Positions 26,838 through 29,668 of a stretch of DNA of 64,000 nucleotides are shown here, piece by piece (position 1 is the stretch's first letter; every line of letters starts with the position of its first letter). The translations under genes were made by a program, and so were the position numbers. The notes under the pieces are model-generated. The model was not told the DNA's origin, did no database searches, and was given only the letters and a program-made list of their open reading frames with translations. The stretch is taken from assembly GCA_033439765.1 (NCBI GenBank), contig JAULSN010000003.1:5394001-5458000 (forward strand), read 5' to 3'. Source of the stretch: Lasiosphaeria ovina. Its lineage: Eukaryota; Ascomycota; Sordariomycetes; Sordariales; Lasiosphaeriaceae.

Positions 26838-27429
26838 TCACTTGGTGTGGTAAATTCCCCAGGTCACAATCAGGTCGTCTGAGATCCTCGCCTCTGTTCG
26901 CGTCTTGTCAGCACCACAAAGTGAAACCGGACAAGAGAAAAAGAAAAGAACAAAGAGCCTTACTGCATCCCATCTTCCCCTCGCATCCGATAATCGGCTT
27001 GCCGTCGCGGCTGAGGTGCTGGAACTGCTGGACCGAGTCGGTAATCGAGTCGATGACGTCCTGGTTGCCGACGTAGAACGTGTCGAGCCGGCCCGTGATG
27101 GAGATGCCCGTGACGCCGAACGCGCACGTGCCGAACTGCGCGATCTCCTTCTGCCACGGGCCGAAGATGGACCACCCGCCGCCGCTGCGGATGTTGGCCG
27201 CCAGCTGCATGCAGTCGCGGGCCAGCGGCGACGCGAACGACGTCTGGTCTGTGATGTTGGACTTGCCGCAGTCTTTCTCTGGCTTGTTGTCGTCGGCCCG
27301 CCGGAACAGTGGCACGCTGTCGGTTGAGTCGCCGCCGCCGCCGACGACGACGACGACGGGCGCCGGAGTGGCCTGCGCCAGGGCGAGCAGGGCGGACGCC
27401 GCGATGGCGAGCCCCAGGAGGCGATGCAT
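26838..27429 (-). CDS. secreted Ecp2/Hce2-type effector-like protein
   Basis: Two exons: 27429-26964 and 26878-26838 (intron 85 nt, phase 1, GTAAGG...CAG), giving 168 residues ending NDLIVTWGIYHTK. Residues 1-20 are a signal peptide (LLGLAIAASALLALAQA); a Val/Gly-rich stretch follows. The Hce2 pattern is clear: DCGKSNITDQTSFASPLARDC, NIRSGGGW, QFGTCAFGV, VGNQDVIDSITDSVQQF, GKMGC. Six cysteines remain in the mature part, C-terminal ...GC|NDLIVTWGIY being the usual Hce2 end. Members are homologues of Cladosporium fulvum Ecp2, a secreted protein recognised by plants; many fungi have several copies of unknown function. The final exon is only 13 codons and would be missed by simple gene calling. 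Confidence 0.85.
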
Positions 27430-28633
27430 CGGAGGCAGTTTACTGCGTGGCTATTATAATAGCGGCGCACGATATCAGGGCTGCAAAAGGCCGAGGCACT
27501 GGGATTTGAATCCTAGTCTCCACACAGGGTCCTGCCCCCATGGGCTACGTAGCTATTTCCAGGCTTCGGTCGGCTTTCGGGAAGGTGGTGATCAGGGGGA
27601 CAGGGGTGGATACGGACGGACGTGGGTGTTCAATTATTATACGTCTTCGGCAGCTCGCAACACGCAGATCTCGATCCGCGGATGGCCATGCTGACGGGGG
27701 CCCGAAATCTGGACCCGTGGCCCGTGTATCACGTCGTGCGCCAGAGGGTGGCCCCGGCGCCGGTCGCTGTGCCGTCGCTTGTCGGAAGTTCTGGCCAGCC
27801 GGCCCATCCTGCGGCCCCTTTATCTGCGGGGCTCCGCGCTGTCCAAGGACATATATTGCGAGAAGCCTGACGGGAGTTGGAGCGACAATCTTCCAAGACG
27901 TTTTTCCGTCTTCGTCCCTCGATGCATCGATCTGACCACTTTGGTCACTTGATCCCGGGTTGCCGAGCCAATTGGGGTCGTTTGTTTAGTCCTGCTGTCA
28001 ACATCAACAACCAGCAAACACAACACTGCACCAAACGCTCATTTGCAACTATTTCGGCAGCCGTGTTTCGATGTCAAGCCACCACCCACAACTACCACCA
28101 CCGGATTGTTGCAATGTAGTTTCCTCACAGCTTTGTGACAATCAGCTGATGTTGAGGGTTCATCATTCGTTTCGGTGTTTCAAGCCAGGCTTATGTAAGA
28201 TTGAACGGCCGCCTTGGCCGGCCACAACTGAGTGGCAGGCCAAGGCTGAGACAGCCTGAGGACGAGACAGGGTAGCTTGTCGTTTTTCAAGTCACGTGTT
28301 GTCAGCCAAGTAAAAGTCGGCGAGTTTCGGGGATATCTTTGCAAGCTGTTTTAACAGAGTTGAAGCCTGATTCTTTCTTCATCAGCTCATTCTGGTCGAA
28401 TTTTGGCCGTCGGTCTCTTTTTGTGAGACAATGTCTCCGTAAATTCGACACAGATAAAGCAAAGACGTGTTAATATTCCAACGAGCTGGACAAGGTCATG
28501 CACGACCTTTGAGTTTGCCGTATAGCTAGTTCCCACCACCGTAGTTGCCAAAAAGCGTCAAGCTTTCCAATGCCGTGAAGGAAACCAAATTGCAAAAGAA
28601 CACCACCACCATGACGCAGCGGGCAAAAAGATA
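27430..28633. other. gene-poor interval upstream of the Hce2-type gene
   Basis: About 1.2 kb with no supported gene. The first part should hold the Hce2-type promoter. Near 27,500 a palindromic GGATTTGAATCC resembles a tRNA B box, but no cloverleaf can be drawn. The part from 27,990 to 28,550 is AT-rich. Confidence 0.45.
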
Positions 28634-28791
28634 GGGGCCTCCCGGGGATTGAACCCGGGACCTCTCACAGAATTGCTCTGGGGTTTGTACCCTAAGCCTG
28701 GTGGAGGCAGTTAGCACAGGGAAATGCTGCAGGTGAAGAAGCTTGTTTGGATTTTTGACTTACGAGAATCATGCCACTAGACCAGCGGCCC
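28634..28791 (-). tRNA. trnP(AGG): tRNA-Pro(AGG) with a tRNA intron plus a spliceosomal-type insert
   Basis: Read on the minus strand from 28791: acceptor GGGCCGC, A box TGGTCTAGTGG, anticodon-stem start CTC, then a 66-nt insert (28762-28697) beginning GTAAGT, holding GCTAAC 12 nt before its CAG end. Next come GC, loop TTAGGGT with anticodon AGG interrupted after G37 by a 20-nt insert (the usual tRNA intron site), stem GTGAG, T arm CCGGG-TTCAATC-CCCGG with B box GGTTCAATCC, acceptor GAGGCCC and discriminator C. A pol III T5 terminator follows at 28624-28628. Removing both inserts gives a 72-nt cloverleaf with one acceptor mismatch (G6-A67) and one G-U in the anticodon stem. The tRNA identity is firm; whether it is functional is open. 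Confidence 0.85.
28697..28762 (-). other. spliceosomal-type intron-like insert in the tRNA-Pro anticodon stem
   Basis: 66 nt between tRNA positions 29 and 30. It has the local nuclear mRNA intron consensus at all three sites: GTAAGT donor, GCTAAC branch site, CAG acceptor with a C-rich tract between. Length matches introns of neighbouring protein genes (51-90 nt). See the finding for tests. Confidence 0.75.
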
Positions 28792-29582: not shown

Positions 29583-29668
29583 GGGATAATAGTATAGTGG
29601 TCAGTACTTCTCGTTGTGGCTGTCACAAAACACCCGAGAGGACCCAGGTTCGATTCCTGGTTATCCCA
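29583..29668 (+). tRNA. trnH(GTG): tRNA-His(GTG) with intron
   Basis: Acceptor GGGATAA pairs fully with TTATCCC, discriminator A. The A box region is TAGTATAGTGG. Anticodon stem TCTCG/CGAGA closes loop TTGTGGC with anticodon GTG; a 14-nt insert after position 37 (about 29621-29634) is the ordinary tRNA intron. T arm CCAGG-TTCGATT-CCTGG holds the B box. A T run near 29,735 can terminate pol III. All stems are perfect, so it should be functional. It lies about 0.8 kb from the tRNA-Pro gene on the other strand. Confidence 0.88.

Follow-up and report, generated by a model that had tools for sequence, protein, structure and literature searches.

Three of the eight tRNA-Pro(AGG) genes found in the Lasiosphaeria ovina genome are interrupted twice. 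Besides an ordinary tRNA intron, they carry an insert with GT..AG borders between tRNA nucleotides 29 and 30. Judging from the DNA sequence, we consider it probable, with some reserve, that these three nuclear genes carry a U2-type spliceosomal intron at this site, and that it goes back to one old insertion. The three-member arrangement in one genome is real and rare; the present function of the subfamily is in doubt. One member (L012, on contig C23) is encoded in the window, by which we mean the whole 64-kb stretch of DNA that was analyzed.

The tRNA-Pro(AGG) gene in the window is located at 28791..28634 on the minus strand and has a length of 158 nt. Its first exon, which contains the A box (TGGTCTAGTGG; 28764..28791, minus), covers nucleotides 1-29 and consists of 28 nt, as the tRNA is devoid of nucleotide 17. 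The sole difference of this exon from three insert-free copies (L009, L010 and L011) is T20>C. It is followed by the 66-nt GT..AG insert (28698..28763, minus), which has a GTAAGT donor, a GCTAAC branch motif whose branch A is at a distance of 13 nt from the 3' end, and a CAG acceptor. The second exon (GCTTAGGG; 28690..28697, minus; 8 nt, nucleotides 30-37) includes the anticodon AGG and is unchanged in all eight aligned Pro(AGG) copies. The canonical tRNA intron of 20 nt (28670..28689, minus; ends uncertain by one T) is located after nucleotide 37. It fits a canonical nuclear tRNA intron by its position (37/38) and by its pairing with the anticodon region, where GGG pairs with CCC of the intron in the lowest-energy fold computed without the 66 nt. 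Canonical introns of 16-21 nt are found at the same place in the six other Pro(AGG) copies that were measured. The third exon (28634..28669, minus; 36 nt, nucleotides 38-73) has an intact B box and differs by C40>T (giving G30.U40) and T67>A (giving G6.A67). The sequence directly after it is TATCTTTTTG. A run of five T residues (T5; 28625..28629, minus), likely an RNA polymerase III terminator, starts at the fifth nucleotide past the gene, and the polymerase III signals (A box, B box, T5) are all retained in the window copy. The one acceptor-stem mismatch which had been suspected is real (G6.A67, as compared to G6.U67 in L009, L010 and L011), and it is the acceptor mismatch of the computed cloverleaf. 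Nucleotides U13 and U22 are unpaired in all five folded copies, including two that are insert-free.

The borders of the 66-nt insert were set by comparison with the insert-free paralogs; they are exact except that a shared G allows a shift by one base. When it is excised at GT..AG, the exon sequence of the insert-free homologs results (alignment with five Pro(AGG) copies). On paper, excision rejoins CTC and GC, which pair with nucleotides 39-43 of the anticodon stem. A sequence-only reading had placed the insert, with these signals, in the 5' strand of the anticodon stem and had stated that a GT..AG cut rebuilds the Pro(AGG) arm; both statements hold, the exact site being between nucleotides 29 and 30. 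ARAGORN makes no call with the insert present; without the 66 nt, it reports a tRNA-Pro(AGG) that has an intron of 20 nt. The gene is not called by Rfam at the gathering score.

The splice signals of the insert are rarely found together. All 66-nt stretches of the 64-kb DNA, on both strands, were tested for a GTRNGT donor, a CTRAC branch motif 6-36 nt before the end and a YAG acceptor, and only one of the 127,868 stretches passes. As the insert in the window copy has all these elements, it must be this stretch. The insert had also been considered identical in style and size to the mRNA introns of the window. Twelve candidate mRNA introns (with 11 donors) of 46-88 nt were obtained from open frames, and the same scan gave one in the reversed sequence. 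The likeness in size stands, because 66 nt is within this range; the likeness in motifs is not independent, since the scan required splice motifs and only length and branch spacing are informative.

Searches of the species' own genome covered 51.7 Mb in 32 contigs. A segment of the 5' exon has 20 matches with at most two mismatches (control: none), which represent, according to a reading of the sequences, eight Pro(AGG), four Pro(UGG), four Pro(CGG) and four Ala tRNA genes. The GT..AG insert is present between nucleotides 29 and 30 in three of the eight Pro(AGG) genes, namely the window copy (66 nt), L015 on contig C8 (44 nt) and L027 on contig C27 (75 nt). The nucleotide is identical and the loci are unrelated. 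That such an insert occurs at the same nucleotide in three of eight copies supports and strengthens the proposal of a spliceosomal-type intron. When the complete L015 and L027 genes were used as DNA queries, their 14 and 11 matches, respectively, included no additional gene with the insert. A whole-genome tRNA search, in which 63 of 1379 candidates were scored, is no census. Many intact tRNA-Pro(AGG) genes elsewhere had been named beforehand as part of what would speak against the proposal, and four intact insert-free copies, all called by ARAGORN, are indeed found (L009, L010, L011 and L013). A fifth insert-free copy, L019 (C27:3039727), is degraded; it has a changed acceptor stem and a damaged T arm and is pseudogene-like.

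Some observations on the other loci are of interest by themselves. L014 (C1:6582433-6582452, minus) is the 5' half of a tRNA-Pro(UGG), starting with GGGCTGT. L030 (C1:6582996-6583017, plus) is a 3' half that ends with ACAGCCCC, and its acceptor strand is complementary to L014. Some 0.5 kb separates the two halves, which are on opposite strands; an inversion within a single gene would leave such a picture. The Pro(CGG) and Ala tRNA genes L016, L020, L021 and L028 have long canonical introns (44-64 nt, ARAGORN); for L016 and L028, the isotype assigned by ARAGORN differs from the anticodon reading.

When the insert is omitted, ARAGORN calls Pro(AGG) in two of the three insert-bearing copies (L027 is rejected even then), and none is called when it is kept. 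In a control with shifted excision, 18 of 61 offsets gave some tRNA for the window copy, three of these being Pro(AGG); for L015, two of 61 offsets gave a call, both Pro(AGG) and one via the shared G; for L027 the control is uninformative, as most calls were antisense or odd. All three inserts are bordered by GT..AG, and their donors are close to the fungal consensus, as expected for U2-type introns (GTAAGT/CAG in the window copy and in L015, GTACGT/TAG in L027). GTACGT is also the donor of one candidate mRNA intron in the window. A strict CTRAC branch motif is found only in the window copy; L027 has CTCAC and L015 at best CCAAC, both being one-mismatch forms. The lengths of 66 and 75 nt are inside the range of the candidate mRNA introns, and the L015 insert (44 nt) is just below it, 44 nt being the shortest length scanned.

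The same borders can be read in terms of the other splicing machinery. In some archaea, a non-canonical tRNA intron at 29/30 is cut by the tRNA-splicing endonuclease via a bulge-helix-bulge, and the three inserts could be of this kind, which we consider very improbable. The text of a tRNA-intron review available to us (PMC4090602) lists 29/30 among the archaeal sites; the nuclear cases described there are from algae and nucleomorphs, not from fungi. When the cut is placed at C|GT..AG|G, the three outer pairs (helix h) form in all three copies, and UAAG of the insert pairs fully with CUUA of the exon in the window copy and in L015. This pairing follows, however, from a consensus donor being located beside CUUA. 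The central helix H (4 bp) is broken in L027 (three of four pairs), and the inner helix h' has none of its three pairs in the window copy, two in L015 and none in L027. Helices h, H and h' thus do not build a complete bulge-helix-bulge at the borders of the 66-nt insert. In addition, the AG at the 3' end of all three inserts would be left without an explanation. The donor change A>C in L027 would keep a spliceosomal donor while breaking the helix of the tRNA-endonuclease type. Because the bulge-helix-bulge is broken in L027 and the inner helix is missing or partial, the spliceosome is preferred over the tRNA endonuclease. Independent of this, the complementarity between the donor UAAG and CUUA of the Pro(AGG) anticodon arm (28763-28698 and 28697-28690, minus) is a feature of the locus. 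The CUUA stretch is also similar to the 5' end of U1 snRNA.

The anticodon stem is interrupted by the insert. With the insert, the computed cloverleaf drops from -22.5 to -13.6 kcal/mol in the window copy, from -25.9 to -17.0 kcal/mol in L015 and from -26.2 to -16.7 kcal/mol in L027. At a cost of about 9 kcal/mol per copy, the spliceosome would have to act first. The order rests on the fact that the tRNA endonuclease reads the mature domain of the pre-tRNA. The lowest-energy fold of the unspliced RNA is not a cloverleaf; such misfolding is weak evidence, since the lowest-energy folds of the insert-free L009 and L011 also depart from the full cloverleaf, and our argument relies on the cloverleaf energy alone.

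The inserts of the three copies are differently related to each other. The first 24 nt past the donor are similar between the window copy and L015 (the score is reached by 18 of 2000 shuffles), and the last 24 nt before the acceptor are similar between the window copy and L027 (23 of 2000), as is the whole core of the latter pair (25 of 2000). For the whole core, the window copy and L015 do not score higher than shuffles (353 of 2000), and the L015 and L027 inserts show no resemblance, scoring below shuffles (1977 of 2000). A separate test with 100 shuffles agrees (score reached by 47 for window copy and L015, by one for window copy and L027, and by 100 for L015 and L027). The canonical introns of the window copy and L015 are near-identical (18/20). 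Given that the 5' part of the window insert is like that of L015 and its 3' part like that of L027, all three inserts would be most simply explained by one old insertion into an ancestral gene and by later copying and divergence. Separate insertions at one nucleotide in the three genes may also account for the pattern.

Introner-like elements are short new fungal introns which have complete splice signals and occur in multiple copies. The insert in the window copy is similar in being short and in having complete splice signals but, unlike introners, it matches only itself: in a search against the genome that skips very common words, the single match was the insert. A mobile intron or introner was rejected for lack of another copy, and the earlier suggestion of a mobile, multiplying intron-like element is thus not upheld; the three copies rather look like one insertion that was carried along by gene duplication. 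Two further candidates were discarded. A lone pseudogene with a random insertion was rejected in view of the two additional copies with the same insertion site, and an assembly fault in view of the occurrence on three contigs with diverged sequences.

Outside the genes, the insert-bearing loci have in common about 14 nt on the upstream side and 9-11 nt on the downstream side (BLAST with 3-kb pieces, short stray matches aside). Divergence of the flanks was rejected as a clock. The insert-free L010 and L011 agree in 72 of 72 exon positions and in 19 of 19 positions of the canonical intron (with two gaps), and have only about 11 nt of flanks in common. Thus, tRNA gene copying seems to take little flank here. 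This pair, which shares exons and canonical intron and almost no flanks, deserves mention in its own right.

If the insert had inactivated the gene at once, the distribution of changes between the window copy and L027 would be hard to understand. Their exons are alike at 67 of 72 positions, as compared to nine of 16 for the canonical introns and 39 of 66 for the inserts (the D-loop insertion of L027 apart). Fisher tests, based on intron alignments that were forced end to end, give p 0.0008 for exons versus canonical intron and 6e-7 for exons versus both introns. For this pair, the mature tRNA sequence appears to have been preserved during the divergence of both introns. Alternatively, such a pattern could result from gene conversion by intact copies. 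For the window copy and L015, forced end-to-end alignment of the inserts overstates the contrast; judged on the alignable intron letters, the exons of this pair are not significantly better conserved (p 0.17).

The exon changes are also the basis for the most serious competing explanation. The three genes could be a decaying tRNA pseudogene family, in which one copy received an insertion that was intron-like by chance, or became so, and was then duplicated. No copy would work now, and the insert would either stay in place or be excised without consequence. We regard this as unlikely, though well worth considering. Exon changes are found in all three insert-bearing copies, some at conserved core positions: three substitutions in the window copy (T20>C, C40>T and T67>A), two in L015, in the conserved core and the B box (G18>A and C61>A), and two in L027 (C60T and C63T) plus a 6-nt insertion in the D loop. 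As tRNAs, L015 and L027 are more damaged than the window copy, and the branch motif is poor in these two of the three. The D-loop insertion (L027:1486-1661; GGTCTA GACCTA GTGG), which is present besides the 75-nt insert, looks like an imperfect tandem duplication. The four intact copies elsewhere in the genome also fit a dead family, because they make the insert-bearing copies dispensable. Three of them (L009, L010 and L011) agree with each other in all 72 nt; L013 differs from these at nine of 72 letters, mostly in an acceptor stem that is changed yet paired. On the other hand, a chance insertion having such signals at fixed borders is rare, as the scan of the 66-nt stretches indicates (1/127,868), and donor and acceptor are kept in all three copies despite the loss of similarity between them. 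The exons of the window copy and L027 are better kept than both introns. T5 terminators are also retained: a T5 run is found within 15 nt downstream in all three insert-bearing and in two of the four intact insert-free copies, compared to 1031 of 127,960 random 15-mers of the window.

The terminators in all three copies also bear on the question of which polymerase transcribes the locus. The insert could be an ordinary mRNA intron in a longer non-coding or 5' leader RNA made by RNA polymerase II, with the tRNA as a passenger, an idea to which we give little credence. Some 1.2 kb downstream of the gene, the same strand contains an ORF (26908-27450, minus) for a protein with an Hce2 domain (Pfam: pathogen effector, putative necrosis-inducing factor). 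This makes a leader across the locus conceivable, and non-functional tRNA exons could survive for some time. A host transcript common to the three copies is, however, not apparent, given that flanks are shared for so few nucleotides in the 3-kb pieces compared, and the minus-strand reading frame that enters exon 1 stops within exon 1. The T5 terminators of all three copies also speak against this idea. On the other flank of the gene, a tRNA-His is encoded (29583-29668, plus).

Further surveys addressed additional genes of this kind. Four ungapped patterns consisting of A box plus donor gave 6, 4, 3 and 7 matches in the genome, compared to 3, 6, 13 and 12 in the controls; they cover position 29/30 and some D-loop lengths, with L015 and L027 being outside the patterns. 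Patterns 1 and 2 are spaced one base off the Pro type, and their 10 loci have no B box in the 260 nt that were read, save one that overlaps the A box itself. Pattern 3, which has the Pro spacing, finds the window gene, and this is the sole one of its three matches with a B box. Four of the seven matches to the fourth pattern are places already found by pattern 1. A pattern search with GCTTAGGGT was uninformative (11 matches, 25 in the control). For U6 snRNA, at least nine matches were above the cut-off (48 of 2376 candidates scored), and all are uninterrupted from end to end, so that U6 offers no local example of such an intron; an interrupted copy might not match. The full-length U6 matches are dispersed over contigs.

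To our knowledge, the removal of introns from nuclear tRNAs is attributed to the tRNA endonuclease alone. Among the matches listed for open-licence PMC papers (titles and starts of abstracts), there is no report on a spliceosomal intron in a nuclear tRNA gene, and no word starting with "spliceosom" occurs in the accessible text of the tRNA-intron review (PMC4090602). Other non-coding RNA genes offer parallels. Fission yeast U6 has an mRNA-type intron for which reverse splicing was proposed as origin, according to the available part of PMC10484740. The case described here is similar in that a short fungal RNA polymerase III gene has a spliceosomal-type intron. It differs in that U6 sits in the active site of the spliceosome, which favors reverse splicing into U6, and in that tRNA-Pro has a second intron for another machine. 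Fungal U3 snoRNA genes, as far as described in the accessible portion of PMC5832005, contain GT-AG introns of ordinary size that have an RCTRAC branch and mostly interrupt the 5' strand of a stem-loop, and copies with and without intron occur in one genome. The tRNA-Pro genes share the location of a GT-AG intron in a stem of a non-coding RNA and the coexistence of intron-bearing and intron-free copies. In contrast to U3, for which 138 introns across fungi were treated, there are three copies of one tRNA in one genome. Introns in fungal rRNA and U2 appear as reference titles in PMC2586383. Non-canonical tRNA introns from archaea, Cyanidioschyzon and nucleomorphs are located away from 37/38 and sometimes occur in addition to a canonical intron (PMC4090602, accessible text). 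The site off 37/38 and the canonical intron in the same gene are common features, and 29/30 is a known archaeal site. The archaeal introns are, however, cut by the tRNA endonuclease via folds of the bulge-helix-bulge type, whereas the window copy has GT..CTAAC..AG and an incomplete fold. According to the text seen of a paper on a standard gene finder (PMC8450103), eukaryotic tRNA genes are limited to one intron. As this is assumed, and as ARAGORN missed the genes described here, tRNA genes with two introns could be missed.

Under the spliceosomal interpretation, the ancestral gene would have gained the insertion once and would then have been copied; the copies differ and are probably in part decaying, the window copy the least. 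RNA polymerase III would make the precursor, as suggested by A box, B box and T5 terminator. In the nucleus, the GT..AG intron of 44-75 nt would then be removed by the spliceosome, as its signals indicate, and the anticodon stem would be rebuilt. Only then would the pre-tRNA have the shape that is recognized by the tRNA-splicing endonuclease, which, together with tRNA ligase, would remove the intron of 16-21 nt. With somewhat less confidence, we consider it possible that a lineage of nuclear tRNA genes has long depended, through its duplications, on the spliceosome to rebuild the anticodon stem and then on tRNA endonuclease and ligase, with the RNA-based and the protein-based splicing system of the nucleus acting in turn on one polymerase III transcript. 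If the insert is spliced, a small transcript of RNA polymerase III whose first exon measures 28 nt would be accessible to the spliceosome. The genes would then provide a clean test of intron gain outside of mRNA, and an order would be set between two splicing systems.
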